From Hoylesella shahii DSM 15611 = JCM 12083 (GTDB lineage Bacteria; Bacteroidota; Bacteroidia; Bacteroidales; Bacteroidaceae), in NCBI RefSeq assembly GCF_000613445.1, contig NZ_BAIZ01000014.1:1-64000 (forward strand): a stretch of DNA of 64,000 nt, written 5' to 3'. This document shows, in pieces, positions 3,338 to 58,168 of this stretch. The number at the start of each line of letters is the position of its first letter. Positions within the stretch are counted from its first letter, which is position 1. The notes beneath the pieces were generated by a model, which saw only the letters and a list, made by a program, of their open reading frames with translations, searched no databases and was not told the origin of the DNA. Both the position numbers and the translations under genes were made by a program.

Positions 3338-6156
3338 TTAGTTTGTTCTTACTGGGCGAACGCTAAAGCCATAGCTGTAAGCGTTGCGAGCCTCTCCGTC
3401 GTTTGTGGGTGCAGACACGCCACCAGTCGACATCTTGATGCGCCAAGCATAGCCAAGTTGATTATTAACAAGTCTTGTATTGGCAGTCCAGAAGTAAGCA
3501 CCAGTTCCAACTGCAACTAACTTACCGTTTTTGGACATATCACGTGCACCACCTGCAGGGAAGAAAATCTTCTCATTGCTGCTAAGTTTGAAGGTAAATC
3601 CTTTATTCCACGAAGCATTTGTGGTGTTGAAGTTGTCGAATGCATATGGATCAGGTATTTGGAAACCAACTGGTGAGGGGTCGTAGATGGTCTTTACAAC
3701 ATCGCGCGTTTTACCATTGCGGTCGTTGTTATTCACTGACCATAAGTTGATGTACTGTTTGTATTGCCATCCAAGCTTACCTGCACCAACCTCTGGTAGG
3801 AAAGTACCAGGGAACTGGATACCACGACCTATCGTACGAGTTAACATTCGAGATCTGTATGGCTCTTGGTTTTCACCTTGATCAGGAAGTTTGGTGAAGT
3901 TATCAGCAGAGTAACCCGAAATGCCATCTACACCAGGAAGTGCATCCTTACGACCCCACTGATACATTGTAGCATTACCTTCTTGATCGGCAATTCCTGC
4001 GTGTTGTACAAGAAGAACGGTAGCAGTTTCCTTCTTACCATCAGGACCTTCTTGTTCAAGCTTTACACTAACCTTACGTTCTGCAGTTGCACCCATCCAC
4101 TTTGTATATCTCCAACCAAGTGTCTCTGATGTGAATTTGTATTCCTTATCTCTAGAAGTATGGTTAATTGTAGAAAGAACACTTTTTGGTGCAAACCACA
4201 AGTGCCATGACCATAGAACCACACCCGTTTCATTTGTTACGGCAACAACAGCGTTACCATTAATTAGATTTTCCTTCTTAACGGTGAATTCTAGGTAATC
4301 GTCTGTACCAAAGCCTCCGCTTACCCTAACAACGTTAGGTGTGCCACTAATTGCGCCAGGTGCATCGGTCCATACAAGTTTACCCTTTGTTGCGGGGTCT
4401 GAAGCGTTCTGTCTGTTGATATAAGGAGTGGTGATCTGGTTGTCTTTGTGGTCTACAAAATGCTCTAGTACCAAGTTCTCAGTATAAGGTGGCAGATACT
4501 CAGGACTAGCTGTACTGGTATAAGCACTGCTATTTTCTCTACCTTCCTTAACGGCATTACCGTATACCAAGGGAATGCGATACGTACCTGGAGCAGAAAT
4601 TACGTAGCTGTTTGCTGTATTCTGAACAAGTGCAGCACCCGTAGAGTTAGCAAGGTTGTAATTAGTAACAGCCGGTGCCTTCTGCAGTTCAGCGTTGCGT
4701 TCAGACAAAAGGTCGCGAATATTCTTTGTAATGACAGCTTGACGAGTTTCTCCAGTTGCATCTGCGCTGCCTTCACCACCGTCAAGACTAGTCAACCAAG
4801 ATGGTTTTTCATTTATAGAGTATGTGCCGTCTAAGTTTTCGTCGTAACCAACAACATTCCATTTAACCTTCTTCTGTACCTTTCCGTCTTGATAGTAAGA
4901 GATAACTTTGAATTGGCTCGATAGAGTTGCATCATAAGCAGCAGAATCCTTAGGAGCTTCCACGCTAAATACATATTTGTAGCTGTTTGCACTTTGCGAC
5001 AGCGCATAGGTCTTAGTTGTTCCGGCCTTCCATGTTCCCTTTAGAGGAATCTTAATAGCTGGAGTTGCTTCACCATCAAAGTAAACATGGATGTACATAC
5101 CTTTGCCTGTCAATTCCTGAGGAATCATATAGAAGGTTTCGTTTTTACCATCACGGCCCACGATAAGTGCATTAACATTTCCCTTTGTGGGAGCTTCAAT
5201 GTCAGAGAGTGTGAAGTCTTTTGGTGAAGTAACTTCGCTCCAAGCATTATCAAGGTCGGCCCCTGTAGTCGAGAGAACCGATGAAGGCAGGGTGAACTTA
5301 CCCTGGCTCATGGCTTTGGTAATGACAATCTTGGTAATCTTATGGTCGGGCGACAGGTTGCTACCTACTTTGAAGCGGATAGCTGTCATGGCGTGTTGAA
5401 ATCTCAAAGGCACAGTTGGGGCTGTACCCTGAGTGGCGTAATGTATAGGAGTTTCGCCCGAACAAGCGGTCATCAAGTCTATTTGTTGCGAAACATTCTC
5501 CTTCACGTCGATGGTTACGTAAGGCGTAGACGTGTTGCTCTTTGGTGAAAGAGTAAGCTTAGAAGGAATGGCATCATAAGGATAAACAGCAAAGAAGCGT
5601 GCATAAGGCTCTGTAAATGCCCAGCGTTTAGCCTCTTCAAGGTTACCGCTCTTGTTTGTTTTGTTGTTGTAGAACCAAGGAGTGGTGCTGATAGCATTAG
5701 CAGCTGTTCCACGATAGGCGGTAACAGAGAAATTCCCAAGCGATGATAGTGTGGTGATTTCTGCACGTGTAGCAGCAGTTCCCGAATTTTCTAATATGTC
5801 ATTATCAATACCCGCAACAGTAGACTCTATAAGACACATGTCGCTGTGTCCAGGAATTTCGTGCTTTTGTATTGTTAGGTCTTCGGGTGAAAGACCTTGC
5901 ATGCGCAGTTGCTCGGCAAATCCAGCACGTGTTGCAGCATAAGCAGGATTGGCTTTGGCTGCATCTTGAGCTTCTTTGTCGGCCATTGATACTTTAAAAG
6001 TAACCAAAGCGCCATCCTCTTTGTTGGTGGCTTGGTCGAGTTCGTTGTCAGAGCAAGCGTGAATCCTAGTGCAGTCAATCCGCTGAGACATGCAAAAGTA
6101 AACGCTTTGGCGCTTATGTTGCGCGTAAAGCTGTTTCTAAAATTAAGTATCTTCAT
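3338..6156 (-). CDS. Fimbrillin-like surface lipoprotein (one-base frameshift near the lipobox)
   Basis: About 939 residues once repaired. The signal peptide MKILNFRNSF... is read from the ATG at 6156 and runs through a hydrophobic stretch. The frame then breaks near 6060-6075, and the rest, beginning HACSDNELDQ, is open to 3338. Adding one base (for example in the GG of CTAGGATT) restores signal peptide, lipobox Cys and mature protein. The mature part has fimbrillin/Mfa-like features: an N-terminal domain with YAATRAGF and RFQHAMTAIRFKVG, and a C-terminal region ending YGFSVRPVR as in FISUMP/C-type-lectin-like modules. It probably forms or caps fimbriae on the outer membrane. Its likely upstream partner gene (45992-46159) is now separated from it by the prophage. 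The frameshift is probably an assembly error, though phase variation is not excluded. Confidence 0.75.
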
Positions 6157-6374: not shown

Positions 6375-9300
6375 TTACGCCACCTCGCTGACCGACTTGT
6401 ACGCCGCCACGCTCTGCGCCCTCACGATTCTGCCGCGGAAGGCCAGACGCGAACCGACACTCGTGTGCGAAGCCGAAGCATCGCTATTCGCATTCGTGTA
6501 CGAGACACCGCAGTACGGGTACGCGTAGCTGCCGCCACGATAGACAACACGGGAACTGCCACCACTGAACCAATAATAGTCCGAATAGGAGGTGGAAGAC
6601 GAACCGGCTACATTTCCCACCGGTATGACGTCCATATATCTGCCGTGGGCCACTGCGGTTATCCACGTGCTACTTGTCATACCCTTTACCATACGGACAG
6701 AACCGGCAGGCATAAAGATGCGCCATTTACCGACATTGCCACTGTCGTTCGGTACATCCACACCGTCCATCATATCCCACTTATGCCCGTATATATCCTC
6801 ATAGCCGAGGCAGCAGATGTTGTTCACCTGAGTAACCGCGGCACCGCCGTACTCGTCTGCGCTCTTGTACCAAGCGTACTGGTGGACGGCATTGTCCACG
6901 AGGCTGTTCGTCACGTTGCCATTTATGCTCTTTGCTTCTTCGTAGCCTATCGTGTCCGTCATACCCCTTGACGCTGTAACACCCGTTGTACGTGTGTCCG
7001 TATGCTGTCCGGCTCCGCATTGTTCCTGTGCGTTCAGGCGACCGTACCACGCATAGAACAGGTTGGCGATGCGCGAGTGCATCAGCGCGTCTATCTGCTG
7101 CATACCCCTCTGTACCGAGTAATAATGAAAGTCCGTCCATGTCATGCTCGCCGTAGTGCTGCCGCCTGTAATAGCCGCCCGCAGCTTGGAGCCGATAACG
7201 GTCGAGCCTACCACGGCGCACAGGTGTTCATCACTGGCAACCCAATCAGGTTCCATATCCTCTATCCTGTCACTGTTGCTCAGCACAACACAGTCGAACT
7301 CTGCCGTATTGAGGATAGTGAAGTGCAGGTTCACGGCCTTTTCCGGCACATCGGCTATGAGGTACATACCTGCCTCGAACTTGTTACCGATGGTCGGTAC
7401 CACGACGGAGCTGATGACCTTGCCTCCGCATCCACGAACACGGAGCCGATGAGGTTCGTGCCGGGAACGCTTGGGAAGCGTACCCGCTTGAAGCCCTCAA
7501 CGCCCACCTTGCATACGCTGTATGCGCTGTCGGTGGTATAGGAGCCTGCCAGCGTGTCCTTGCCGCTCATTATCTTCTTGCCGGACAAAAATCCGTTCTG
7601 GGCGTTCTTAACCTCTTTTTCCGTCAATACGGTTGCTGCTGGGCTGGCAGGTCTGTGGCTACGGTCGTTGCTGCTGTAGCAGCTGTAATGCCTGCCCTTG
7701 AGGTAGTCGTTTATACCCTTGTACCAGAAGAAAGGCTCATACATCATCCAGTCGCCCTCCGTGCCGTCCAGCTTCGCCTCCGTACCGTCTGCGTACTTGT
7801 TGCTGTCGGTATCATCCAAGGGATAATAGATTACCTCACCGTCAAGGTTGGGAACGGCCACGTCCTGACCTGCCATGTTCACGTTGCGCGTCGTGGCTTT
7901 CTTGGTAACCTTGGCCAATACTCTGTGCCGCTGCCTCATGATGGCCGAGATATGACCGCTCGGCTTGTAGGGCGTGCTGCTCCGGTAGCCCGTGCCGTTG
8001 TCAAGGTTGGTCACATTGACATCATCGGCGATGGAATCGTCGAACTCTATCATCGTGTAGTCCGGCTGTCGGATGTTCAGTTCGGGGAAGTGGGCGCACA
8101 ACTTCCCGTACTCTTCCTCCTCCACATACTTGGTGAGCTGTACCGTACCGACCAGCGCACAGGTCTCGGTGGCATTGCCTCAGCGTCCACACCGCCCATA
8201 TTCGCAAACCGTTTCAGCCAAGTGCCGTCGTCGGTCTTGCTGATGCCGGTTACACGCAGACGCTCCACGCCCGTACAGCGCAGAAGCAGCGTTTCCCAGT
8301 TGATGTTCGGACAGCCGTCCACGATGAGCGTCTTAATTCCTGAATAGCTTTCAAGGCTCAGCCCGTTTACCGTCAGTTTGCTCAGGTATTCGAGCTTCAG
8401 TACATTCAGCGTGCCGGGAAACAGGGCTGTCGTTACAGGCGCACCCTTGGCAAAGGCAATGCTCTTTGGCTGTGTGCCGCGCGCGTCAAGATACTCCAGC
8501 TTGGTCTGGTTGGAGAAGTCAAGTTCCGTGGAGGTGCTGCCGCCTGTCTTGGCCTGCTGCTGATTGCGCAGGTTTACCTTCCTCAGCTGCCGGCAGCTGC
8601 CGATGTTCAGCCACCATCGTGCTTCCGGTCGTACCGGACTGAAGGTCCAGCTCGCGCAGGGCGGTACACTTGCCGAGGTCAAGGCCGTTTTTCAGGTGGT
8701 CGGCTGCATCCGTCATATCCAACACCTGCATACGGCTCGCGCCATATACACGTAGAGGATCATTCACGGTATAGGAGCCTATTATCCTCAGTTCTGCGGT
8801 CTTGCCAGCGTCCACGATTCCGCTGTTGCCAAGGTTAGGGCTGTTGTTCGTACCATAGCCGAAAGCATACACTTCCCCGGCGGTTATCCTGAGCGTGTCC
8901 GCCGTGTCCGCACCTGTCCGGGACATATAGAGGTCAATGTTATCAGAGGTAAAGCTGCTCGTGCCGTATTTCGCGTCGAGCAGGGCAAACCGGTTCCTCA
9001 CGAAGTAGGTCAGGAACGCCTTGTTGCTGCCCTGCAGGGCGTAGATGAACGGCCACTTCTTGCCGTAGGTGTCCACCATGGCAGGGCGGATGTATTTTAG
9101 GTAGCCGCTCTTGTTGTAGGCACGGTCGCTCCAGTTGCCCATCTGCTCCACGGTCAGCATGGACAGCACACGCTCCGGAGTCATCTTCGCCCGGTAGTTG
9201 GCCGCGCAGCGTTTCAGGTCATCGCCGAGGTTGGCCAGCACGAGGTTCCACAGCCAGCTCTCCCTGCCCTCGAAGGCGTACTTGCCTGCCTCCGCGTCCC

Positions 9301-18726: not shown

Positions 18727-21700
18727 TTATAGCTTTATGTTTGTCTTCTTCCTGTTGATACGCGTTTCGTTGGCCAAGGCAATCACGATGTCCCGTCCTT
18801 TAAGCCTTGCCTCAAGCCTGCCGTTGAACCCGCCCCCGGCATCGCCTATCAAGGACTTCAGCTTATCAAGCGGTGCTATTACTTCTGGATTAGAACTTGC
18901 ACCGCCATACTCTCCCATGAGGGCAAGGGTCGGTCCGTACACCAGACCTCCGTTGGCAAACGGCGTGACGGCAACAGAAGCCACCAGTCCTTCCATCATG
19001 CGATGAAGCCGGCAGCGATACCTGCACCTGCAAACGGTATATAGGCGTGGGCCGCCATAAACTCGGAAGCTGCAAGTTCCCGGTATGCCATGGCCTGAGC
19101 TTGACTGCAATCGTGGATACCGTGGCAGCGGCAACCTCTTCGGGGGCAGCGGCGACCTTGGCTGCCGTGGCGGTAGTTGTCGCAACGCCACTGGCCGCCA
19201 CGACGGTATTGGATGTTGCCGTTGCCGCTGTCAGCGCATTGATGATTGCTATAATGCTGTTTACCCCTTGATAAATCTGTATAGCCGCATCGACTACACT
19301 GGTAATGGTTTCCCAAGCCCCACGGTTACCCTGAAGTGCATCTGTCAGTGAAGAGATACCGCCACCTATACCTTTGAGAGAACTCCACGATTTTTCCACC
19401 GTTACATTGCTCTTTTTAAGTATTTTCTGGTATTTCTCATAACTCTCCACAAGTTTGTTCACTTCGGCACGCTGACTTTCGTCCATTGGATTCTTCGTGT
19501 CAGAGAGCATATCCTGCAACTCCTTGATGCGCTTTTTCACACCATCCAATCCCATTACCCGTAGTTCCATCGTAAGCTCCCTGCCGTTCATACCATTAAG
19601 TTTGCCTACCTCGTCCTGCAATTCCGGGATACGTGTCAGCTGCTTCATGGCATCACGCTTTTTCTCCAATGCCATGATGGTACGCTCTATCTCGGATATT
19701 TCCGAGGCACTTGCCTTCTTCTGCTTGGACTCATAGTAGCTGATGGCCTTGTCCAGTTCCTCTATGCTGTCCAGCCTTGAAATATCTTCAGGCTTTTTCA
19801 GCTCGTCCAGTGTATCGTCCCACTTCCTGCGTAGGTCATTCAGTGCATTTATCTGCTTCTGGATTTCGATACGCTCTTCCGCAGTGGCAGTCTTCAACAG
19901 GTCAGAATAATACCTCACTTCCTCCTCCAGCTGCCTATATGTCCTTATCTTGTCAATGCCGACATCAATGTGCGCATTGCGTTCGAATGCTGTTTTAAGC
20001 TCGTTCAAACGCCCGATTTCCTTATCAATACCGGCAAGGTCAGATTCTGCAGCCCGTTTTCTAAGTCCCTGCTGATAGGCTATCTCATTGTCAATATCCT
20101 CAAGGGATTTCAATTCCTTGGGTCGTGCTGCCAGCTCCTGAATACGGGCGATGGCTTCCTGCTGCTTCTGAAGCAGGGCAATCTTTTGAGCATAAAGGGA
20201 TATGGTCTTGGTCTCTGTCCCTTTTGTCGTTTCGAGCTTGTTCTGGTAATACTGGATATTGTTGCCAAGCTCCTTGTAGCTCGTGGCATTGGCTATGAGG
20301 TTCTTTCCATCGTACGGGTCGGTGTCCTTCTTGGTCTTCTTTTTGTCTTTCTTCTTTTTATCACCGACAGGGGCGTTGAACTTTTTGTTTCCTTTAAGTG
20401 CCGCCTGCGCATTGGCGGTCTTCGCTTTCGTGTTTTCTTTCAGTGCCTTGGTCTGCTTTTCTATTCCATCGGTCTGTTTTACCGGACCGCTGTCATCAAT
20501 GCCGAAAAACTTTTTTACCCATTCCCATGCCGCTTTTATGACAGCACTTGCCCTTTCAAAGGCTTTGACAAGAAAGTCCCATACTGCTGAAGCCAAGTTC
20601 TTCACCACAGCCCATACTTGGTCGCATATATTGCGGAAAGTCTCACTATTATTATAGGCTGCCACTAATATGGCAACAAGTCCGGCTATTGCATAATGAC
20701 TATACCTATGGGATTGGCACTCAGTACGAAATTCAATGCTATCTGTGCAATTTTCCAAGCATTGGAAGCAAGTACGGCAATCTTTGAGGCTGCTGCCTGT
20801 GCGAGTGTGGCAATTTTGACAGCCCTCAATCCGGACACGACAGCTACCAGCCCACCCTTCAGTTGTGCCATACTCATTAACGCCAGTCCCGTGTTAGCTA
20901 TCATCTCCATATAAGGGGCGGATGTACTGGCCAATGAGCCCGCCCAGTCAAGCATGGATTGCACTTGGTTCTTCAGCATCTGTCCGACGCTGTCCCCTGT
21001 ACTTGACATTTCATTGAAGGCCTCCTCTATCGTGCCGGCAGAGTCAGCCATGGCTCCTATGTTCTCTGAAAACTTGTCTTTCTGCTCACCCGTCAGGGAA
21101 CCGAGCAGGCGGAGAGCCTCTGCACTTCCGAACAATTGTCCGTAGATGGTTTCGCTAAGCTGGCCGGTCTTGGCCGAATATTCCTGAATGCTTGCATCCA
21201 GTCCCAGCAGGAAGTTCTCAAGTCCTCCTGCAGCCTGCACACTTGCGGCATTGAAGCCAATGCCCATAGCCTCTGCTGCCTGTGTCGCTTCGGCAGACGG
21301 CTTGATAAGTGCATTCAAGACTGCTGCCAGCTGGGTAGAGACCTCTGCTGTATTACCGGTAACACCTGTAGTCGTTGCAAAGACGGCCATGAGTTCGTCC
21401 ATTGAAACGCCCAGCTGAGAGGCACTTCCGCTGACACGGGGCAGTGCCTGACCAAGCTGTTCGAAACTGGTTACACCATTCTTGGCCGTCATCTGTATCT
21501 TGTCCTGAATGGTCCCAGCCTGATCCCAGCTCAGTCCATAGTTCTTGATAAGGGTCGAAGTCACTGTTACGGTCTGACTCAAATCGGCAAGCCCACCGAC
21601 TGCAGCCTTACTCGACTGCTCCAAAAAACTTATCCAGTTGTCTTCGGGCACACCATTTGATATTGTCTGATACAATCCATTGGCGAGTTCCTCACGTGCC

Positions 21701-22044
21701 AGCGGTATATTTTTGCTCAGCCCAACTATCTTGTCAGAGAGTGCATCGAACTCTTCTCCGCTCTTGCCGGCCATCGTATTAGCACTCCGCATGGCTGTCT
21801 CAAAGCTGTTGAAAGGAGCAGCCAGTCCTCCTACCATATCACGGAGGGTCTCGACCGAGCGCATCGCACCTTCGAAAATCATGCTCTTAGCTGCCATTTC
21901 CTTCAGCTGAGAGCCTGTGCTACGCGCCGTCTCACCTACCTTTTCCAAAGCTTCGTCAAGTCCGGTAGCTTCAACGGTCAGGTTTTTCAAAACGCTGCCG
22001 TCGCCGCTTTTTATCTTGATTTGAAATTCTACTGCCTTTGCCAT
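18727..22044 (-). CDS. Tail tape measure protein (three apparent frameshifts)
   Basis: About 1,106 residues after adding one base near 20697 (IVIM then AIAGL), 19097 (VK then AQAMAYREL) and 19007 (GFIA then MMEGL). The N-terminal 330 residues show the TP901-type pattern (ANTMAGKSGEEFDALSD, PRVSGSASQLGVSMDELMA, FATTTGVTGNT). Hydrophobic segments follow (about residues 395-475), then long charged coiled coils with Lys-rich linkers, and a C-terminus reading FANGGLVYGPTLALMGEYGG, a common tape-measure ending. It sets tail length and enters the host with the genome. It sits between the tail chaperones and the tail-tip genes. Confidence 0.85.
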
Positions 22045-27153: not shown

Positions 27154-28713
27154 ATGGCAACAGCAGCAGAAAAGAAACTGGCATTCGAACAGTGGAAGGA
27201 GCATTGCAAGCGCATCCAGTCCATTACGGACACCACGGCACTTGCCAACGAGACACCTGCCCAAAAAGACAGGCGCAAGGAAAGACTGCTCAGCAACTAT
27301 GCCGCCTTCTGTGAGTATTATTTCCCTCATTTCCTCACGCTGCGTGATAAGACAACGGGCGAGGTGGTGCGAACGGTACACAACGCGCCGTTCCACAATC
27401 AGGCTGCACGCAAGGTTATGGAAACACCGAACCTGAAAGCGGTCTTCATGTGGCCGCGCGGTCATGCAAAGTCCACGCACTTCGACATCTTCATGCCGCT
27501 CTGGTTGATGCTGCGCCCCAAACGGCTCATCAATTTCATGGTCGTAGTTGGTAAATCACAGGACAGCGCAAACCGGTTGCTCGGAGATATTCAGGCAGAA
27601 CTGGAATATAATCAGCGCATCATCGCTGACTTCGGGCAGCAGAAGAACCTCGGACTGTGGACGGCAGGTGAGTTCAAGACAGCCTCCGGCGTGAAGTTCC
27701 TTGCTGTTGGCCGTGGCCAGTCGCCGCGTGGACTGCGTGAGCGCGAGGCGCGTCCGGACTACATTGTCATCGACGACCTTGACGATGACGAGCTCTGCCG
27801 CAATGAGAAGCGTGTGCACGATCTCACCGATTGGGTGAAGGAGGCACTCTTCGGGGCGCTCGATGTGGGGCGCGGGCGTTTCCTTATGGTGGGAAACCTC
27901 ATATCAAAGACCTCCGTACTGGCCAACATCGCAGCCACGCGAGGGGTATTCGTCTCAAAGGTACAGGCCGTCGATAAGAACGGTGAGCCGGTATGGAAGG
28001 AGAAATGGACCAAGGAAGACGCACAGGAGTACCGAGACTTCGTGGGCTACCGTGCGTGGGAGAAGGAGATGATGCACAATCCCATCGTGGACGGCACCAT
28101 CTTCCGGGCCGACTGGATAAGGTACAAGCCCATGCCGTCGCTCCGCAAGTATGATATGCTCGTATGCTATACCGACCCGTCTTTCAAATCAACCACAGCC
28201 AACGACTACAAGGCTTCCCGGCTGTGGGGCAAGCTCGGAAACGAACTCCATCTCATAGACTGCTATGTACGGCAGGACACGGTCGGAGGTATGGTACGAT
28301 GGCTTTATGACCTCTACGAACGGACGAGGGACAAAGTGGCCATACTCTTCTTTATGGAGGCGAACTTCATGCAGGACGTCATTCTGGACGAGTTCGCCGT
28401 GGAGGGCAACCTGCGTGGATACCAGCTGCCTATTATGCCCGACAAGCGCAAGAAACCTGAGAAAATACAGCGTATAGAAGCTGTCAGCCCACTGTGGGAA
28501 CGTGGCTACGTTTACTACAATGAGAAGCTCAAGGACTCACCCGATATGCAGGTGGGCATAGAGCAGACGCTGGCTCTCGAACGTGGCAGCCGTGTGCATG
28601 ACGATGCACCGGACGCTGACGAGGGGGCGATATGGATCCTGCAGCGCAATGCAAGACAGGAAAGTTTTCAACCGGTGTTCGGAAAAAGACCGACCGCCAA
28701 AAATTCATGGTAG
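27154..28713 (+). CDS. Phage terminase large subunit
   Basis: 519 residues. ATPase motor: Walker A variant MWPRGHAKSTHFD (about residue 95), Walker B YIVIDDLDDDE (about residue 208). Nuclease domain: MLVCYTDPSFKSTTANDYKA with the first acidic residue and a downstream DDAPDADEGAIWIL. It packages DNA into proheads. The gene is uninterrupted. Confidence 0.9.
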   Translation: MATAAEKKLAFEQWKEHCKRIQSITDTTALANETPAQKDRRKERLLSNYAAFCEYYFPHFLTLRDKTTGEVVRTVHNAPFHNQAARKVMETPNLKAVFMWPRGHAKSTHFDIFMPLWLMLRPKRLINFMVVVGKSQDSANRLLGDIQAELEYNQRIIADFGQQKNLGLWTAGEFKTASGVKFLAVGRGQSPRGLREREARPDYIVIDDLDDDELCRNEKRVHDLTDWVKEALFGALDVGRGRFLMVGNLISKTSVLANIAATRGVFVSKVQAVDKNGEPVWKEKWTKEDAQEYRDFVGYRAWEKEMMHNPIVDGTIFRADWIRYKPMPSLRKYDMLVCYTDPSFKSTTANDYKASRLWGKLGNELHLIDCYVRQDTVGGMVRWLYDLYERTRDKVAILFFMEANFMQDVILDEFAVEGNLRGYQLPIMPDKRKKPEKIQRIEAVSPLWERGYVYYNEKLKDSPDMQVGIEQTLALERGSRVHDDAPDADEGAIWILQRNARQESFQPVFGKRPTAKNSW

Positions 28714-28714
28714 T

Positions 28715-28945
28715 ATGATAAAACTGATAAAAGACATCATTTTCGCTTGGAAATACAAGCGTGCAGTCCGTAAGGCAAAGAAACTGTCGGCCTTGTTCGG
28801 AATGAAGTATTATGTGCTTAGTATGGGAGGTAATCTCAAGGTCGTTCCCAAGCAGAATATTCGCCACCTCGTGCGCACCCGTCGCTTCCGTAAGGGCGTA
28901 AAGGTGTCGGACATAGAGAAGCACGCATTGTATGTAACTGTATAG
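28715..28945 (+). CDS. Small basic phage protein
   Basis: 76 residues starting MIKLIKDIIFAWKYKRAVRK; very rich in Lys/Arg. The ATG at 28715 directly follows the terminase stop. It lies between terminase and the gp36-like gene in a head-gene cluster. Function unknown. Confidence 0.6.
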   Translation: MIKLIKDIIFAWKYKRAVRKAKKLSALFGMKYYVLSMGGNLKVVPKQNIRHLVRTRRFRKGVKVSDIEKHALYVTV

Positions 28946-32196: not shown

Positions 32197-32430
32197 ATGA
32201 AGAAAATTATCGAATTTCTCAAAAAATCAAACCACTACAAGCGCCTTATCGGTGGTTTTATGGTGGGATTGCTTGCCTGTTCGCCTTGGACAGCACTCTA
32301 TTCGGCTGTCGTGGCAGCCACCTGTCTTGAACTCAAGGACAAGATGTACAGCAACATCTATGGCTGGACAGACTGGTCGCTCTCGGTAGGTGGTGGTGCC
32401 GTTGCCGCGCTTATCTGGCTGATTCTCTGA
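32197..32430 (+). CDS. Small phage membrane protein (two TM segments)
   Basis: 77 residues. Two hydrophobic segments (about 19-42, GGFMVGLLACSPWTALYSAVV, and 62-77, SVGGGAVAALIWLIL) separated by a short polar loop. It lies between the MuF gene and the DGR template. Size and topology would suit a holin or a similar small membrane protein, but nothing specific was recognised. Confidence 0.55.
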   Translation: MKKIIEFLKKSNHYKRLIGGFMVGLLACSPWTALYSAVVAATCLELKDKMYSNIYGWTDWSLSVGGGAVAALIWLIL

Positions 32431-32460
32431 AAAGTTGAACGGAAGCCCCCTAAATATGAG

Positions 32461-32468
32461 TACCTTTG
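32461..32468 (+). promoter_or_regulatory. -7 promoter element for the DGR template RNA
   Basis: TACCTTTG plus C fits the Bacteroidota -7 consensus. A start about 7 nt downstream would place the RNA 5' end about 20 nt before the template repeat core. The -33 region is weak. Confidence 0.5.
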
Positions 32469-32474
32469 CATTTG

Positions 32475-32819
32475 GAACGGCGGAGTCCCCCAATCCCGTG
32501 TTGTCTATCGTGGCAGCAACAACGCGAACCCGAACTGCGGTGTCTCGTACACGAATGCGAATAACGATGCTTCGGCTTCGCACACGAATGTCGGTTCGCG
32601 TCTGGCAAACAATCAATCGGTCCCACGGCAAAGGAGGACGTGTCCTTACAGCTGCACCGAGGGGGGCAAGCCATGGCAAAAGCACTCATCAGGGTGGAAA
32701 GCCGGAACATCAAGTGTCGGGTGGAGTTTGGTAGGTCCACACCAAGACTCGAAAAACTCAGGCCCGGAGTAAGGAAGGCTAATGCCTTTCGTGTATAAAT
32801 ATAAAAGCAGATAAAAGAG
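32475..32819 (+). ncRNA. DGR template RNA (template repeat plus spacer before the RT)
   Basis: Non-coding stretch between the membrane protein gene and the RT. It contains the template repeat (32494-32606) and a 213-nt spacer. In BPP-1, sequence between TR and the RT gene forms a structured RNA needed for cDNA priming; the same is assumed here. The 5' end is inferred from the promoter element, the 3' end from the RT start. Confidence 0.55.
32494..32606 (+). repeat. DGR template repeat (TR)
   Basis: 113 bp matching the VR of the tail protein with seven mismatches, each an adenine here. Adenine-rich AAC/AAT codons (pseudo-translation GSNNANPNCG and YTNANNDASA) concentrate the mutable sites, as in other DGRs. 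The GC-rich end shared with VR (TCGGTTCGCGTCTGGC) is the likely initiation-of-mutagenic-homing region. Confidence 0.97.
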
Positions 32820-34121
32820 ATGCGCAGGGAAGGATACATCATCGAGGAGGTCGTAGAATACTCCAATATGTCGGACTCGTTCGACAGGGTGCTGCGTGGT
32901 ACCAAGCGAAAGGAAAGCCCGCAGGGGTGTTCGCTGCTTGCCCATCGCGAGGAGGTAATTCGCGAGTTAAGTGAGTGTATCGAGGCAGGAACCTTCACGG
33001 TCAGGGACTACCGTGAGCGTGAGATCAATGAGAACGGCAAGGTACGCCGCATACAGATTCTGTCAATGAAAGACCGTATAGCAGTACACGCTATCATGGC
33101 AGTGGTGGACAGACACCTGAAGAAGCGTTTTATCCGGACCACCTCTGCAAGTATCAAGGGAAGGGGTATGCACGACCTTCTGGCATATATCCACAGGGAT
33201 ATGCAGGAACAGCCGGAATCGACACGCTACTGCTACAAGTTTGACATCAGCAAGTTCTATGAGAGCATTTCTCAGGATACGGTGATGGATTGTGTACGCC
33301 GGGTGTTCAAGGACGAGAGGCTCATCGCTATGCTTGACGGTTTTGTCCGTATGATGCCTCATGGACTGAGCATAGGGCTCCGTTCCTCACAGGGACTTGG
33401 AAACCTGCTGCTGTCCATACACCTTGACCACGTGCTGAAAGACGAGTGCGGTGTACGTCACTTTTACAGGTATTGTGATGATGGAGTTGTACTTGCCGGT
33501 TCCAAGAGGGAACTTTGGGAAGTGCGCGAAATCATACACCGTCAGATAGAGAGCATCGGTCTGAAGGTAAAGAGGAATGAGCGTATATTTCCTGTTAGGG
33601 AAGGAATAGACTTCCTCGGCTACGTAATCCGTCCTGACCACATTCTCCTGCGCAAGCGTATCAAGCAGAAAGCCGCTAAGAAACTGAATGAAGTAAAATC
33701 AAGAAAGAGACGGCGTGAACTCATAGCCTCGCTTTACGGCATGGCAAAGCACGCCGACTGCAATAATATGTTTTATAAATTAACAGGCAAAAAAATGAGA
33801 TCATTTAAGGACTTGAACGTTTCTTACCAGCCGGAAGACGGCAAGAAACGTTTTCCCGGAACAGTGGTGAGTATCCGGGAACTGGTAAACCTGCCTATCG
33901 TGGTCAAGGACTTCGAGACGGGTATCAAGACAGAACAGGGGGATGACCGCTGCATTGTCTCCATCGAGGTGAACGGGGAGATGAAGAAGTTTTTCACCAA
34001 CAGCGAGGAAATGAAGAATATCCTCGCACAAATCAGGGAAATGCCGGACGGCTTCCCGTTCGAGACAACTATCCGGACGGAAACTTTCGGTAAGGGTAGA
34101 ACAAAATACGTTTTCAGCTGA
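32820..34121 (+). CDS. DGR reverse transcriptase with C-terminal extension
   Basis: 433 residues. RT motifs: KFDISKFYESI with Asp142, motif 4 IGLRSSQG (residues 185-192), showing the SQ characteristic of DGR RTs rather than the SP of other retroelements, and catalytic YCDD at 218-221. Residues about 325-433 form an extra beta-rich domain (FPGTVVSIRELVNLPIVV to TKYVFS) absent from minimal DGR RTs; it may bind nucleic acid, but I do not recognise it. No Avd-type accessory protein is visible. Stop overlaps the next ATG (TGATG). It copies TR RNA with adenine mutagenesis and donates cDNA to VR. Confidence 0.95.
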   Translation: MRREGYIIEEVVEYSNMSDSFDRVLRGTKRKESPQGCSLLAHREEVIRELSECIEAGTFTVRDYREREINENGKVRRIQILSMKDRIAVHAIMAVVDRHLKKRFIRTTSASIKGRGMHDLLAYIHRDMQEQPESTRYCYKFDISKFYESISQDTVMDCVRRVFKDERLIAMLDGFVRMMPHGLSIGLRSSQGLGNLLLSIHLDHVLKDECGVRHFYRYCDDGVVLAGSKRELWEVREIIHRQIESIGLKVKRNERIFPVREGIDFLGYVIRPDHILLRKRIKQKAAKKLNEVKSRKRRRELIASLYGMAKHADCNNMFYKLTGKKMRSFKDLNVSYQPEDGKKRFPGTVVSIRELVNLPIVVKDFETGIKTEQGDDRCIVSIEVNGEMKKFFTNSEEMKNILAQIREMPDGFPFETTIRTETFGKGRTKYVFS

Positions 34122-35074: not shown

Positions 35075-35323
35075 ATGAAGATGAAGATAATTGAGGTCTT
35101 GAAATTTAACAGGGAACTGATAAAAAGACTGCGAATGGCAGGAATACGCTTGGAAGATGAGCAGTTCGTGGACTTGTATAGTGATTATACCACACTGCTT
35201 GCGAAAGGAGAAAAGGTGTCATACATCGTGGCTATCCTTTCAGAAAGGTATGCCGTAAGTGAACGGAAGGTGTATGGGCTCATCAAGCACTTTCAAACAG
35301 ACTGCACGCCCTCTGCAGTGTGA
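35075..35323 (+). CDS. Small putative HTH protein (possible Mor/C-like regulator)
   Basis: 82 residues. The C-terminal part KVSYIVAILSERYAVSERKVYGLIKHF reads as a helix-turn-helix similar to the end of Mor/C-type activators of Mu, though the protein is shorter than Mor. It is the only obvious regulator between early and late gene blocks. Tentative. Confidence 0.5.
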   Translation: MKMKIIEVLKFNRELIKRLRMAGIRLEDEQFVDLYSDYTTLLAKGEKVSYIVAILSERYAVSERKVYGLIKHFQTDCTPSAV

Positions 35324-35392
35324 TTTGCCGGCTTTGTTCTTTCGTCTGTACCGGCATGGGTATCTTTGTGCCGACAAGCAAAAAGACGAAAT

Positions 35393-36030
35393 ATGAACAA
35401 GTATTACCAAATTCTTCAAAGAATCCTCGTGTCAGGGAAGACACAGGACAACAAGAAGGGAACCATCCGCTACCTGCTCAACGAACAGCTGACACTCAAC
35501 CCCGGTGACCTGCTCGACATCTTTGAGAGCCACGCATTGCCCGAAAGAAACTGAAAAATGAACTCCGCCTCTTTATGCAGGGGGAGCGTAATGTAGAGAA
35601 ATACAGGGAAGCGGGTATCAACTGGTGGGACTACTGCGGTCCGGTTCTTGTGAACAGCTATCCCACTTATCTGGAGAAACTTCCACCATTGATTGCGAAG
35701 ATCAACCGTGAGAAGCGCAGCAGCAAGAACTATGTCCTTTTTCTTGGCTCAACAGATGCAGAAAGCAATCAGGCACCCTGTCTCAGCCTCGTGCAGTTTC
35801 AGATTGAACAGGGAGAACTCGTGCTTACTGCCTACCAGCGCAGTAGCGATGCCAACCTTGGACTGCCTGCCGACATCTACCATCTCTACCTTATGGCAAG
35901 ACAGATAGAACTGCCGCTGAAGTCCATCACGCTCAATATCGGCAATGTACACATTTACGAGAATAACATCAGCCGGACGGAACAGCTTCTTGCCGGAAAT
36001 GAGGACACTAAATTTGACCTAAATGTATGA
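35393..36030 (+). CDS. Thymidylate synthase-like protein (one apparent frameshift)
   Basis: About 212 residues once one base is added near 35540 (TTGCCC to TTGGCCC). N-terminus MNKYYQILQRILVSGKTQDN; then LRLFMQGERNVEKYREAGINWWDYCG, as in the TS FLQGDTN region; NQAPCLSLVQFQ with the catalytic Cys; and YQRSSDANLGLPADI, the TS dUMP-binding signature, with IGNVHIYENN near the end. Shorter than cellular ThyA (about 264). Phage members include dUMP/dCMP hydroxymethylases that make modified bases. The stop overlaps the start of the methylase gene, suggesting a joint role in DNA precursor or DNA modification. Confidence 0.75.
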
Positions 36031-36950: not shown

Positions 36951-37354
36951 TTATTCCGTCATCAGATAACGCACTTCATAGCTGTCTATGCTCTCCAATA
37001 TGTCCTCGTGGTTGTGGTTGGTGTCTATTGCGACGAGCGTCATTCCATTGAAACGCTCACCGTCCAGCCTTCGAGTGTAGAATGTATTTTATAGCTCAGA
37101 TCCCAAGCTGCGTCCTGACCGCCCTCGATCCAGTCTGTAACGATGTGCAGGCGCACCAGTCCCTTGCCACGATGCCCCCTGCCTTGGAACGGCGAGCAGT
37201 TGATGGTGGCTATCTCCACGAACACGGCAGGACGTTCCCAGTTATCCTCCTGCTCAATGAACTCCACGTTGTGGTTCCACAGGGCAATGTGCGCCACTTC
37301 GGGCACGTTTACATTCAGTTTTTCCTTGATGGCGTTGTATAATTCTTTTCTCAT
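36951..37354 (-). CDS. Mu gp37-like protein (one apparent frameshift)
   Basis: About 134 residues after adding one base near 37055 (SG/FNGMTLVAIDTNHNHED...YLMTE). MRKELYNAIKEKLNVNV and RLHIVTDWIEGG suit small tail-terminator/gp37-type proteins that cluster with Mu G. Without repair it stops at 37040. It overlaps the G-like gene by 4 nt. Confidence 0.6.
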
Positions 37355-41103: not shown

Positions 41104-41975
41104 CTATGCTTTTTTTAGTTTCTCTATCTCTGTATATACCCTTCTCAGTCCGCCGCCACTTCTGCGCACAATCTGTCCGATGTCGATTCCTTTCGGTGCG
41201 TTCACGCTGGCCACGGCACGGGCTTGCTCCAACAGGAACTCCCTACGGTCATCTTCTTGGTCAGGCGTTACACGGCTGTACTTACCGCCATAGCGTGAGA
41301 ATATCTCGCATAGCCCACTTTCTGATGTTCCACCATTCTGTTGATTTTGGCACGCAGTCCGTCTGCTCCCATCATATACCAGCCACAGCACATTTCCGTT
41401 GCGTTCCACAATGCCTTCAGTTCAAGGAAAGCCTCGTACTGCAAGTCCCCAGCTTCGTCCAGCACTACCAACGGACGCTCCATCGAGCGTAGATAATACA
41501 CGAGATCCTCGTAGGTGTCCTGATACTTGCCGCTGATGCCGACACCAAACTCCTGTGCTATCTTCTTGACCAACGCACGCTTCGTCTTCACTTGTGAGCA
41601 ATCGACGTACACAGCGTTACGGTGTTCGTGTACATACCAGCGTGCCGTATAGGTCTTGCCGATGTTGGGCAGGTCGCAGAGTATCACGCTTAGGCTACGC
41701 TCTTGACACGCCTCCATCTGCAGGCTGATATATTTGAAAGTCTCCGTCTGTGCACCTTTCCACTCAATCGTCTCTCGGAGGTTCACGTCCAGCCTCCGGG
41801 CAATGTTCACCCAGTTGGCATCGCTCAGCGCTTTCTCCGTCTGACCTTTTTTCAATCCGTTATAGACACTTGGAGAGATACCCAGTGCCGATGCGTGTTT
41901 CGCATCGCTTGGATAATTCTTGCGGTTGGCTGCTATCGCCTCCAGTATCCGCTGTTTTTGAGTCTCACTAATCAT
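41104..41975 (-). CDS. MuB-like transposition ATPase (one apparent frameshift)
   Basis: About 290 residues after adding one base near 41309 (GYA/EIFSRYGGKYSRVTPD...IEKLKKA); unrepaired it ends at 41268. N-terminal HTH (SDAKHASALGISPSVYNGLKKG), Walker A variant CDLPNIGKTYTA, Walker B LVVLDEAGDL, and a C-terminal helical domain rich in Arg. MuB binds target DNA, confers target immunity and activates MuA. It follows the transposase by 25 nt, as in Mu. Confidence 0.85.
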
Positions 41976-46897: not shown

Positions 46898-47166
46898 TTA
46901 GCGACGCAGACCAAGAGCCTTGATGATAGCGCGATAGCGTTCGATGTCGCGGTCGTACAGATAGTCGAGCAAACGACGACGCTTACCTACCAACATGGTC
47001 AATGATCTTTCCGTGTTATAATCTTTACGGTTCTTTTTCAAGTGTTCCGTCAAATGGGAAATACGGTATGAGACAATGCTATCTGGCTCTCTGCAGAACC
47101 AGTATCAGAGTTAGACTTCCCGTATTGTCCAAAGATCTCTTGTTTTTTTGCTTGATCTAAATACAT
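46898..47166 (-). CDS. rpsO: 30S ribosomal protein S15 (one apparent missing base)
   Basis: Start MYLDQAKKQEIFGQYGKSN, then GSAESQIAL; the frame breaks near 47062, and continues SYRISHLTEHLKKNRKDYN, SLTMLVGKRRRLLDYLYDRD and IKALGLRR. Restoring one T (TTGTCT to TTGTTCT) gives exactly 89 residues, the universal S15 length. S15 binds 16S rRNA and nucleates the 30S platform. As this core gene is present here in broken form, the break is most probably a sequence error. Confidence 0.92.
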
Positions 47167-47412: not shown

Positions 47413-49442
47413 ATGTATAAATCATTATTCAACAAGCGTGCGAGCCTGCGTTTCACGCATTTTTCTCGCAAGGGATATGCGCTTTTCTCGTGTTTGGGAA
47501 AAGAAGTTATCGTTGGCACGCTGAGCGTTGCAACCTTGGCGCATGCTAAGGCTGAGGGCTTGAGCACCCGCACCCCGTTGGTGGCAGACACCTTAGCACA
47601 TAAGGAGCTGAAACTAGACGAGGTGGTGGTCACTGGTTCGCGAGCGCCGCTCACCGCTTTACAGGCAGCTAAGGTAGTTGCTGTTATCAGTAGCGACGAC
47701 ATTCAACGGTCGGCCGCAACCAGTGTAAACGATGTTTTAAAGTTAGTCTCAGGCGTGGATGTTCGTCAGCGCGGAGGCTTTGGTGTACAGACGGACATTT
47801 CTATCAACGGCGGAACGTTCGACCAGATTACCATTCTATTGAATGGGGTGAACATTAGCAACCCGCAAACAGGACACAACGCCGCTGATTTTCCTGTTTC
47901 TCTTTCTGATATCGACCGCATTGAGGTGCTCGAAGGTGCTTCGGCACGTGTGTTTGGTGCTTCGGCTTTTAGTGGGGCAATTAATATTGTTACCAAAACC
48001 GAGGCTCAAAGTGGCGTTAGGCTCTCGGCCGATGGTGGCTCGTTTGGCACTGTTGGTGGCAGCGTGGCACTTAGTTTGGCCTCTAAGACGGTGCGCCAGC
48101 AGCTTAGCGGTGGCTATTCGCAATCGGATGGCGGAACAATCAATACTTATTTTCGTAAGCGACAGGGCTTTTATCAAGGCAATTTCGAGACTAAGGCAAT
48201 AGACTTGTTTTGGCAAGCGGGACTCGTTGCTAAGGATTATGGCGCTGGCACATTCTATGGCATTGCTAGCGACAATCAATATGAGGAGACGCGACGGTTT
48301 GTGGCTTCGGTGGGTAGCAACATCCGCCCCCTGCCCAACAACGTGCTAACCCTATCGCCCACCATCTATTGGCAACGCAATTGGGACCACTACCAGTGGA
48401 AGCGTGGCATGACGGGGGCTGCGCAAGGCGAAAACTATCATCGCACCGATGTGTATGGCGGAGCTTTAAATACGGTGGTGAACTGGGCTTTGGGTAAAAC
48501 TGCACTGGGGGTCGACTTGCGTAAGGAGCTGATTTATAGCACGGCCTATGGCGAAACATTGCCTGCCCACCAATGGAAAACCATACATGGCAGCGACCGA
48601 ATGTACGAAAGGCGAGGCGAAAGAACCAACACGAGCTTGTTTTTAGAACATAATGTGGTGCTCCAACATTTCACACTCTCGGCTGGTTTGCTGGCTAATC
48701 ACAATACTTGGCTTTCTGGTGGGCTGCATTTTTACCCTGGGGTAGACCTCGCATGGCGACCAAATGCCCAATGGAAGGTGTTTGCTTCGTGGAACAAGGC
48801 CTTGCGCTTGCCCACCTATACCGACCTCTATATCAGCAATCGCGCACAGATGGGCGACCAAAATCTTAATCCCGAACGAGTAAATACTTATAAACTGGGG
48901 GCGCGTTATCGCACAACGGCTCTCCAAACTCAGGTCAACGCCTTTTATAGCAATGGTCGCGACATGATTGACTGGGTGTTCGAAACATCGGCCTCCACGC
49001 GTTATCATGCCCTTAATATTGGTAAACTAGATAATATGGGGGCATCGGTAGACCTGGCTTTTATGCCCAAAGAGTTGTGGGCGAATAGTCTTTTCACAGC
49101 TGTTAGGTTGAGTTATGCTATATTCACCAACAACACCACACCACACAACCTATATATAAGTCGCTCTATGCTTTGGAATATCTGCGCCATAAGTTCACGG
49201 CCACGGTAGACCATCGCATTGTTTCGCGCCTTTCGGCTCATTGGGCGATGCGCTGGCAGCAGCGAATGAATGGCTATCATCCTTATACGAAGGTGGATTT
49301 GAAACTGCAATGGACGGCGCCCAACTATTCGCTCTATGTGCAGGCTGATAACCTTACGGCTCACCCTTATTACGATTTGGGAGGAGTTAAGCAACCGGGG
49401 TTGTGGGTGATGGCTGGCGGAAGCATTAAGTTAAATCTTTAA
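47413..49442 (+). CDS. TonB-dependent outer-membrane receptor (one apparent frameshift)
   Basis: About 676 residues after adding one base near 49124 (SYA/YIHQQHHTTQ), which joins the plug and first part of the barrel to the last strands ending YDLGGVKQPG and SIKLNL. Signal-like N-terminus, then KLDEVVVTGSRAPLTAL (TonB-box region), plug domain with ISINGGTFDQITILLNGVNI and RIEVLEGASARVFGA, and a barrel. Similar in size to BtuB/CirA-type receptors. No SusD partner is adjacent. The ligand cannot be told from sequence. Confidence 0.88.
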
Positions 49443-50648: not shown

Positions 50649-51640
50649 TGGCTAGTGGAACTAGCGGGTTTTTCTATGTGTGATGTGGTGACGAGGGATG
50701 TTTTGTGTGTGGCTTTATCTTGTTAAGGCGTAAGAATAGTTCTTGTTAATTTGCTGTTTTGTAAAAATAAAAGAGAGGATATTCGCGCAAATACTGCCCT
50801 CGCCAGTCAGCAAACATTCACTCGACGCCAAATATTCAATTCTCGCGAGAGTTTGGGGTGATGCAAAAAGGGGCAACTTGCTTAGGGTTATAATGCTGTC
50901 TGGTATTGCATGAAATTGCGGTTTTTAGGGCGTAACGTGCCATTTCTAGCTAAAATCGGTGTTATTTGCTGCATTTAGCCTTGCGTTTTGTAGCAAAACG
51001 CAAGGCTAAATGTACCAAAACGCGAGGTAAACTGCAGCAAAACGCAGGGTTAAATGCAGCAAAATGCAAGGCGAAATGCATTAAAACACGCATCTATTTG
51101 TATTATTATACGAGGAGGATAGGGGGTTGAAGCCTTTAATTTGATAAATATATTCTGCTTTTTAAGGCTAAAATGTGTTAGAAAGGTGTGATTTTAGTTG
51201 CTAAAAGTTGGTTTTGGAGTTGCGAAAAATTGTGCGTCAACTGCCAAATAGAAAGGCTAAATGGTGCAAAACGCATGTGGCGCGCCTCAAATAGGTGTAA
51301 AAAATAAATTTGAAAGGTTGAAAATAGTGCCCAAAAGCATTGTTTTACGCCTTATTTTTTTCTATAATGATCGGCGAACAAATGTCTGTTTGTAAAATAT
51401 TTGTACGTCATTTTGAGCGGTTGGCAAACAGCTGGGTTTTGAAAATTGAAGTCACAAAGTTGTTAAGCCTAAATTTATGACCTTTTTTTCAGCCTTGAGC
51501 GCAATAGTTTTAGAGTAGACGCCTACGTTTTCTTCGCGCTTTATCGTATTCTTGTTTTGTTAAGTAGAGGAGGGGGTGTGCGTTAGGGGCGGCATTGGCG
51601 AGAGGTGAAAGGGCGAGGTGTGGCAATTAGGGGAAAAGAA
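50649..51640. other. Non-coding region with tandem repeats
   Basis: About 990 nt without a credible gene. Contains a 19-bp palindrome and four 22-bp tandem units (next entry) and scattered related words such as GCAAAACGCAT (51257). Confidence 0.5.
50972..51080 (+). repeat. 19-bp palindrome merging into 22-bp tandem repeats
   Basis: A perfect 19-bp inverted repeat (50972-50990 and 50994-51012, loop TAG). Its right arm is the first of four 22-bp units starting at 50993, 51015, 51037 and 51059, each close to GCAAAACGCAAGGCTAAATG plus two bases. Confidence 0.75.
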
Positions 51641-51644
51641 AAAT

Positions 51645-51683
51645 GGGATTGGTTAGCCCCAAGTGGGGTATTTAACCAATCCC
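51645..51683 (-). terminator. Terminator of the lipoprotein gene
   Basis: GGGATTGGTTA (51645-51655) pairs with 51673-51683; an inner GCCC stem is also possible. On the minus strand it is followed by ATTTTTCTTTTCC. Confidence 0.8.
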
Positions 51684-51703
51684 AATATAACTCGTAGCGA
51701 AGC

Positions 51704-52168
51704 TTATTGCTGGTTTACCACCACTTTCGCATCCTTATACGCCTTGTTTACCACTAGCAACATGATGGGGCGAATGGTGAAACTGCGCTTAGCGCCAACC
51801 TCAACCTTGTAGTTAAGGTGAAGTGTGGCGTTGTTGCCAGTAAGAGACACGTTGGTGATTTTTGTGTCGTTGTAGGTTTCGGGCAACACAATGGGCAACA
51901 CAAAACTTTTAGAGAAGTTAATAGGAGTGGCTTCTCCGTCTTTTCCCATGAATGCTGCGATGCCAAAATATAGGTTGAAATCTTTTTCGCGGGTAATTTT
52001 TTCGCCCACATTCAGTTCTTTTCCCGTATTCAGAAAATAGTTGCGTGCCTCGTGAAAGCTAACTTGTGTTGAGTTTGTTGTGCTTTTGCAGCAGGAGCAT
52101 GCGGCAAAGGCCAGAATAGCAACTATTGCAAAAGAGGCAAAAATGGTTTTCTCTAATTTCTTTCTCAT
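51704..52168 (-). CDS. Hypothetical lipoprotein, 154 aa
   Basis: MRKKLEKTIFASFAIVAILA with lipobox AFAAC; start at 52168 chosen for the signal peptide. The mature part is a single beta-rich domain (GKELNVGEKITREKDFNLYF, NNATLHLNYKVEVGAKRSF). Acts at the envelope; family not recognised. Has its own terminator. Confidence 0.65.
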   Translation of the reverse strand: MRKKLEKTIFASFAIVAILAFAACSCCKSTTNSTQVSFHEARNYFLNTGKELNVGEKITREKDFNLYFGIAAFMGKDGEATPINFSKSFVLPIVLPETYNDTKITNVSLTGNNATLHLNYKVEVGAKRSFTIRPIMLLVVNKAYKDAKVVVNQQ

Positions 52169-52405
52169 TTTAGATAATATGCTTTTGTGTTGATAATCTG
52201 CGATTGTTGCCCAATATTGTCCATCGCGTTGCGTGCTTATAGCTATGCGATGTTTGGAGCAGACAAGCAAAAAGTCTAAAGAGACATGGTTAGATGTTCG
52301 CTTTAGACTTCTTTCTTTTTGCTTATTGAAGCGCTACCATTGTTTGTTATGTCTTATTGTCGCTGGCGCGTCCCCATAGTTTTGAAAATATCCCCCACGT
52401 ATATA

Positions 52406-52516
52406 TTACGTGTACCAGATAGAAGAATCTACTGTTTTACCGTAGAGCTCTTCTTCGTTGTAAACGTTGTCGAGTTCGTAGTCTTCTTGACTGTAGCTCT
52501 TTCTTTTAAGTTTCAT
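52406..52516 (-). CDS. Small acidic peptide, 36 aa, with strong ribosome-binding site
   Basis: MKLKRKSYSQEDYELDNVYN ending SSIWYT. Preceded on the minus strand by AGGGAGG 7 nt before the ATG, an unusually good Shine-Dalgarno for this phylum. A -7-like TATCTTTG lies upstream at 52672-52665. Function unknown. Confidence 0.45.
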   Translation of the reverse strand: MKLKRKSYSQEDYELDNVYNEEELYGKTVDSSIWYT

Positions 52517-52664
52517 GGTTAAACCTCCCTTGGGATCTCTGGTCTCTAGCAGATCCCTGTTAGTTGATGGTAGATGAAGAGACCGTCATCTTCATTGCAT
52601 AGATAGTAGAGTAATATTAAATGAAAACTAAATGTTGTATTACATGTTAGCTTCATTTGTTTTG

Positions 52665-52672
52665 CAAAGATA
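52665..52672 (-). promoter_or_regulatory. -7 promoter element of the 36-aa peptide gene
   Basis: CAAAGATA on plus (TATCTTTG minus) followed by C; about 150 nt upstream of the small gene. Confidence 0.45.
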
Positions 52673-53031
52673 CACATTAATCTTCTAACTTGTTACTTTT
52701 TTAGTTTGATTTTTCTGTGTTTTAGCACTTTTTTGTTTATTGAGGCTTTAATTTTTCACTTCTTTGGGTTATTTTTAGTATATTCTGTTGTTTGGTGTTT
52801 GACGTAAAATCAATATTTATGACAAATTTTTAATTCCTTTTGTGTGAATTTACGATAAGTCTTTACAAGTTGTAAACATTAGTGTTATATGCGCTTGCAA
52901 TGTGTATGAAAGGTGAAAAACGGCGCGTTTTGCAGCTAATGTGAGTGGCGATAAGGTTTTTTATAATGTGTATCGGGGACTTTATTCGAGGTTTATGGTT
53001 AACTTTGTGCAAGCAAAATATAAATAGCATC

Positions 53032-57002: not shown

Positions 57003-58168
57003 TTAGTCGTTTAAGATGAGCAATGCGTCGCCGAAGCAGCCAAATTTGTATTCGTTTTCCACTGCCAGTCGGTAAGCTTCCATCACAAGGTCGTAACCGC
57101 CGAAGGCAGCAGTAGACATCAAGAGGGTGGAAAGGGGATGATAGAAGTTGGCCAGCATTGTATCTGCCAATCCAAAGTCGTATGGAGGGAAGATAAAACG
57201 GTTGGTCCAGCCAGTGTATTCTTTCAACATGCCATCTGTTCCAACAGCAGTTTCGGTGGCTTTTATCACGCTTGTGCCGACGGCGCAAACGCGTCTGCCC
57301 TCTGCTTTTGCCTTGTTTACAATGGCGCAAGCCTCTGCACCGATATGCATTGATTCAGAATCAACCTTGTGTTTGGTGAGGTCTTCTACTTCGATGTCGT
57401 GGAAATTACCCAGTCCGCAGTGCAAAGTGATGAATGCCGAGTTGATTCCGCGTATCTCCATGCGCTTAAGTAGTTCGCGACTAAAGTGCAAACCTGTGGC
57501 AGGAGCCGTTACGGCACCTTCGTTTTGGGCGTAAATGGTTTGGAAGTCCTCCATATCGTCTTCCGTTCCGTGGTGATCTTCGCGTGCGTCGATGATGTAA
57601 CGCGGCAGTGGCGACTCGCCTAAGGCGAAGAGCGAGCGTTTAAATTCGTCGTGATCGCAGTCGTAAAGGAAACGTAGGGTGCGACCGCGGCTCGTGGTAT
57701 TGTCTATAACCTCGGCCACCATAGTGCCACTGTCGTCGAAAAACAGTTTGTTGCCGATACGAATTTTGCGTGCCGGTTCTACCAGAACATCCCAGAGGCG
57801 CATCTCTTGATTGAGTTCGCGCAGCAAAAACACTTCAATCTTGCGTCGGTCTTTTCTTTCATACCGTAAAGGCGTGCGGGGAACACCTTTGTGTCGTTGA
57901 ATATAAAGGTGTCGCCTTCGTCAAAATAGTCTATCACATCGCGAAACTGTAGGTAATCTCCTTTAACAGGCTTACCTTTTTTGTCTTTACGATAGAGGTC
58001 GATGGTGCCCGATTTCTTGTGAAGAATCATTAGGCGACACTCGTCGCGACGCGTTAGGCGCGACATTTCTTTTTCTCCCTTCTCGTTATGTATCTCGTGA
58101 TAAACACTGTTGGGGTACAAGGCGATGAGCTCTTGTGGCAGCTTGAAGTTGAATTGCGATAGCTTCAT
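57003..58168 (-). CDS. queA: S-adenosylmethionine:tRNA ribosyltransferase-isomerase (one apparent frameshift)
   Basis: About 388 residues after adding one base near 57837 ([13 protein letters not shown]). First part [19 protein letters not shown] and [12 protein letters not shown]; second part [47 protein letters not shown] and [19 protein letters not shown]. Adds the epoxycyclopentane moiety in queuosine synthesis. Probably intact in the organism. Confidence 0.92.

Follow-up and report, generated by a model that had tools for sequence, protein, structure and literature searches.

The closest described error pattern is that of the Ion Torrent PGM. In the excerpt of PMC3623719, strand-asymmetric indels on this instrument are mostly C and G deletions, with 82% falling in homopolymers of two to three bases. 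According to the same excerpt, PGM indel sites recur across runs above chance and cause frame-shifts in the assembly, and the high-frequency indels overall include many insertions, with only 29% in homopolymers. Ion Torrent reads and Newbler assembly were used for drafts of Bacteroides JCM strains, the Bacteroidales drafts being obtained in ∼95–112 contigs at 22–38x (excerpts of PMC3907732 and PMC3924377). When Corynebacterium pseudotuberculosis Cp162 was resequenced, the number of frameshifted pseudogenes went from 116 (SOLiD) to 67 (Ion Torrent) and 41 (Illumina), and the authors attribute the surplus pseudogenes to indel errors (excerpt of PMC10836205).

The draft genome examined here amounts to 3.49 Mb in 142 contigs, one of which is only 506 bp long, and has a completeness estimate of 92.27%. 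The window, by which we mean the whole stretch of 64,000 nucleotides that was analysed, corresponds to positions 1–64000 of contig C129 (68,118 bp). The named relatives of a prophage gene in it are Bacteroidales, mostly Prevotella-like; the gene is mobile and therefore a weak guide to the host. A plasmid search of 50700–52900 gave no match. An earlier note on this DNA had listed about 22 breaks, nearly all of them single-base deletions in short homopolymers, and had ascribed them to sequencing error. We located breaks with a homology scan in which relatives' proteins were used as queries on the coding strand only. Breaks with an offset >2 or short arms were excluded, as were queries shorter than 100 aa (60 aa for viral loci). 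rpsO was lost to this length filter and was assessed separately. A gene-model frameshift scan gave several calls per ∼20 kb in each of eight further loci, from phages or relatives, and in the P. falsenii locus itself. It was too noisy on phage DNA, and the break counts for C129 were therefore taken from the homology scan. The features concerned are as follows.

3338–6091, minus strand: fimbrillin-like gene (Mfa_like_1), open frame, 917 aa
6375–14100, minus strand: prophage tail-region genes, deletion-like breaks near 7421, 8177, 10684, 11406, 12558, 12872, 13409 and 14055
18890–22044, minus strand: prophage tape-measure gene, deletion-like break near 20683, also in P. falsenii
28713–28716, plus strand: terminase end and start of the next gene, ordinary gene boundary without a break
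35075–36030, plus strand: prophage thymidylate-synthase-like gene, deletion-like break near 35542, spanned by 25 loci
37040–37354, minus strand: prophage gene of unknown function, deletion-like break near 37067, spanned by 34 loci
41104–41975, minus strand: prophage AAA-ATPase gene, deletion-like break near 41309–41313, also in P. falsenii
46898–47166, minus strand: rpsO (ribosomal protein S15), two frames joining near 47074–47080
47413–49442, plus strand: TonB-dependent receptor, deletion-like break near 49.14–49.16 kb
57003–58168, minus strand: queA, deletion-like break near 57843, two pieces of PF02547, break spanned by 13 relatives' loci

A relative's 89-aa S15 protein matched the window in two different frames, with residues 1–31 at 47166–47074 and residues 30–89 at 47080–46901. 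Matches to the same query in the relatives were confined to a single frame at 19 of 19 loci. In a search of the whole genome, the broken rpsO was the sole match to the S15 family in the draft. Seven further genomes reached via other loci, P. falsenii among them, carry one S15 match apiece with no internal stop. Alignment with relatives, which was partly legible, indicated that the window rpsO is one base short inside a two-base A/T run. The frame break and the gene limits reported earlier for rpsO were both reproduced, while the repair site proposed at 47062 lies ∼12 bases from the actual junction.

Of the 68.1 kb of contig C129, 50.0 kb was matched in the homology scan. Deletion-like breaks there numbered 16, compared with 3 insertion-like breaks and 1 of two bases; with rpsO and the TonB receptor added, the deletion-like total is 18. 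One listed site, 28714, was rejected as a break, for two frames were found there in 50 of 53 records holding both pieces, window included. Removal of this gene boundary and of two weak breaks near gene ends (16122 and 19017) left 15 breaks, four of which (7421, 8177, 11406 and 12872) are backed by a single relative's locus each. The scan of C129 with its own gene model gave 10 deletion-like vs. 8 insertion-like calls and missed both rpsO and queA. The earlier description of many deletion-like breaks, phage genes included, holds with corrections; the count of 22 was somewhat high against ∼15 supported by homology. The predominance of single-base deletions is seen by homology (16 vs. 3 insertion-like and 1 two-base) and not by gene model. 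Two breaks named before were found again: both pieces of queA match one Pfam family and are bridged in the relatives, and the C-terminal piece of the TonB receptor lies inside a 632–764 aa frame in 13 of 13 matching relatives (23 other genomes searched). A break previously assigned to the fimbrillin-like gene was not found in its open frame. At all eight tail-region breaks the P. falsenii prophage is one base longer. In the thymidylate-synthase-like gene, the piece downstream of the break corresponds to PF00303 positions 109–227 of 266.

The Mu-like prophage in the window also carries a reverse transcriptase gene (32820–34121, plus strand). It is preceded by a 113-nt repeat at 32494–32606 (plus strand), a 94% inverted copy of which lies at 6442–6554 (minus strand) near the 3′ end of gene 6375–7403; all seven differences between the copies fall at A of the copy adjoining the reverse transcriptase. 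The gene and its repeat pair likely constitute a diversity-generating retroelement, judging from this arrangement. An RT-3 RNA (RF03068, 120 bits) was detected between repeat and gene at 32615–32766 (plus strand), and a literature search turned up no description of this RNA. The P. falsenii prophage (loci L274 and L196) is without the 1.9-kb reverse transcriptase stretch (window 32207–34121). It keeps the target copy, in which 8 of 12 differences from the window template are at A positions of the template.

We then compared the rest of the genome with 14 relatives. Fifty-one of 57 loci fetched from the other contigs of this genome were used; the remaining six (L076–L081) consist entirely of N and were left out. 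One contig of 3,176 bp (L082, G000:C43) proved to be 23S and 5S rRNA. The gene-model scan detected 116 deletion-like and 20 insertion-like breaks in 941.6 kb of the other contigs, vs. 35 and 24 in 1,128.7 kb of the relatives. Expressed per 10 kb, the rates in this genome and in the relatives were 1.23 vs. 0.31 for deletions and 0.21 vs. 0.21 for insertions. By homology, 132.9 kb of matched sequence on the other contigs gave 27 deletion-like, 0 insertion-like and 2 two-base breaks (23 of the 27 deletions being supported by one relative's locus each). The relatives gave 11, 2 and 2, respectively, in 290.5 kb matched, and 9 of these 11 control deletions lie in the single locus L119. The excess of deletions is not limited to one element and is present across the other contigs; the fault is wider than a single contig and extends to the whole genome. 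The stretch L119:139–4774 (G016:C1), with nine deletion-like breaks within 5 kb, is also matched by viral queries and is probably a decayed prophage.

Essential genes are among those affected. The rpoC gene of this genome was matched in four consecutive stretches with three frame changes between C137:92940 and 93883 (∼1 kb). Frame arithmetic from the match coordinates showed that each change is of the one-base-deletion type and that the third returns to the first frame. No other match to rpoC was found in the draft. The ileS gene contains two in-frame TAA codons, and a short part of it lies in a different frame. In ffh, rpoB and dnaE the frame is intact, and some intact genes are expected at the observed rate. 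The fault was also seen in two other drafts: ileS of P. falsenii JCM 15124 is in three frames, and rpoC, dnaE and ileS of P. oulorum JCM 14966 are each in two. Taking rpoB, rpoC, dnaE and ileS together, 6 of 12 copies are affected in these three genomes, vs. 0 of 40 copies divided over more than one frame in ten further, distinct genomes (G044, with coordinates identical to G010, was counted once, and rpoC of G016 was counted as unsplit). In the latter, at G016:C1:2884434–2887487, the rpoC match stops oddly at model position 989 within a 4044-aa open frame. Cells do not survive without rpoC. Since rpoC is essential and is split here, the deposited sequence differs from the cell's own.

We concluded that the breaks are very probably (roughly 95%) errors of the draft sequence rather than mutations of the organism. 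This agrees with the cause proposed earlier, and the comparisons that point to it are a deletion-only excess across the genome, the triple interruption of rpoC, the state of ileS and the intact genes of the relatives. In the living cells, the apparent pseudogenes are almost certainly whole genes of the bacterium, and we infer from the sequence comparisons that its own DNA is intact. Sequencing or assembly would have lost single bases genome-wide, at a density of ∼2 sites for every 10 kb of coding sequence with a match (27 in 132.9 kb). Each lost base would shift the frame, so that an intact gene would appear as two overlapping pieces. Mean identity after the break minus that before it was +0.7 points for C129, -3.7 points for the other contigs and -5.2 points for P. 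falsenii, all measured on broken genes only.

Two of the prophage breaks call for separate treatment. The AAA-ATPase gene, presumably MuB-like from its position, is read in a single frame in 33 records and in two in both the window and P. falsenii (L005). The tape-measure gene is in one frame in seven records and again in two in the window and P. falsenii (L196/L274, one genome). The break reported at 41309 is thus present in the window as claimed but is not private to C129. P. falsenii covers 13 C129 breaks; 10 are absent there and three align without a gap, one of these being a gene boundary. The breaks at 20683 and 41309 may be genuine and have come with the prophage by descent or exchange, the remaining breaks being errors; we entertain this possibility with more doubt than confidence. 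It draws on the identity of the break in two genomes and on the unusually long identical tracts surrounding both, 116 nt for the tape-measure gene and 359 nt for the AAA-ATPase gene, where the median tract in the alignment is 6 and 3 nt, respectively. The P. falsenii draft, however, carries the same deletion fault, with 18 deletion-like and 0 insertion-like rows in 63.4 kb (overlaps counted twice). Merging of overlapping loci reduces the 18 rows to 14 distinct places, one of which is the terminase boundary; five deletion-like breaks lie in the 20-kb locus L292. Because that draft has the same fault, the sharing does not decide between real and spurious breaks at these two sites. IMG/VR record 2585427898 shares 7,026 bases of identical sequence with the P. 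falsenii draft and hence is no independent witness. PGM indel sites are also described as recurring between runs (excerpt of PMC3623719), and an identical tract provides an identical context. Divergence between the window and P. falsenii is mainly silent downstream of the breaks, as it is upstream: silent to other differences were 87:30 (tape-measure) and 14:4 (AAA-ATPase) in the downstream parts, and 98:16 and 21:2, respectively, in the upstream parts. A real, old inactivating mutation does not fit this pattern, which agrees with recent exchange or with an artefact that recurs. It is very unlikely that the two shared breaks are real and bridged by frameshifting in Mu-like Bacteroidales prophages, in the tape-measure protein and the transposition ATPase; if this were true, the bridging would account for silent-biased divergence on both sides of the breaks.

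It is also very unlikely that the genes are truly broken, in a decaying or mutator lineage with accumulated one-base deletions. The breaks are indeed present in the deposited sequence, many of them in a prophage, a kind of element that often decays, and the prophage-like locus L119, with its nine deletions in 5 kb, would be such decay within the genus. Genuine pseudogenes are expected to be dispensable, which is contradicted by an rpoC that is split three times with no second copy matched, and rpsO and ileS are affected as well. Insertions are at the control level, and the sequence after the breaks is little less conserved than that before them. A slippage mutator is generally expected to strike long runs, and in both directions. 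Lastly, programmed frameshifting or a recoding rule by which ribosomes read through the breaks would suit the conservation that persists after them, but it is hardly credible, since relatives have the same genes in one frame (only P. falsenii has the two shared prophage breaks), no common sequence was found among the located sites, where bases and run lengths vary, and rpoC would require three events in ∼1 kb.

If the breaks are errors of the drafts, as we favour, claims of gene loss, pseudogenes, phage decay or a missing ribosomal protein drawn from this genome, from P. falsenii JCM 15124 or from P. oulorum JCM 14966 are doubtful without accurate reads. Breaks common to such drafts are not independent evidence for a real mutation.

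To place the lost bases, we used the DNA of the top-ranked relative, which was at least 80% identical at 13 C129 sites; both weak breaks and both shared ones are among these, and relatives disagree on the base at several of them. Ten of the 13 placed losses on C129 lie in a run of at least two, compared with 44.8% expected from coding bases (p = 0.02). Nine of the 13 are G or C in a run of at least two (21.3% expected, 0.213 per site; p = 0.0003), and for seven of these nine the run is two or three bases long. Relatives of the other contigs are 58–79% identical and placement is poor; only 5 of 25 sites placed there are in any run of at least two, which is below chance. In P. falsenii, ∼6 of 14 distinct places lie in such a run. 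A preference for short homopolymers is seen among the sites placed on C129 and is not borne out on the other, poorly placed contigs.

A literature search found no paper on the sequencing platform of this genome. Perhaps the genome was sequenced on an Ion Torrent PGM and assembled with Newbler, the combination published for other JCM strains at that time; this is a guess by analogy, which we lean toward. The excerpts of PMC3907732 and PMC3924377 cover neither this genome nor P. falsenii nor P. oulorum, so that a common method would be inferred; the likeness to those JCM drafts lies in fragmentation, here into 142 contigs. Compared with the Cp162 resequencing (excerpt of PMC10836205), the organism is different, and the completeness estimate, which was unchanged for Cp162, is 92.27% here. 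In relation to the strand-asymmetric PGM indels of the PMC3623719 excerpt, the present breaks differ in that the run preference was seen on C129 only. They resemble those indels in the dominance of deletions on the other contigs, at 116:20 by gene model and 27:0 by homology.
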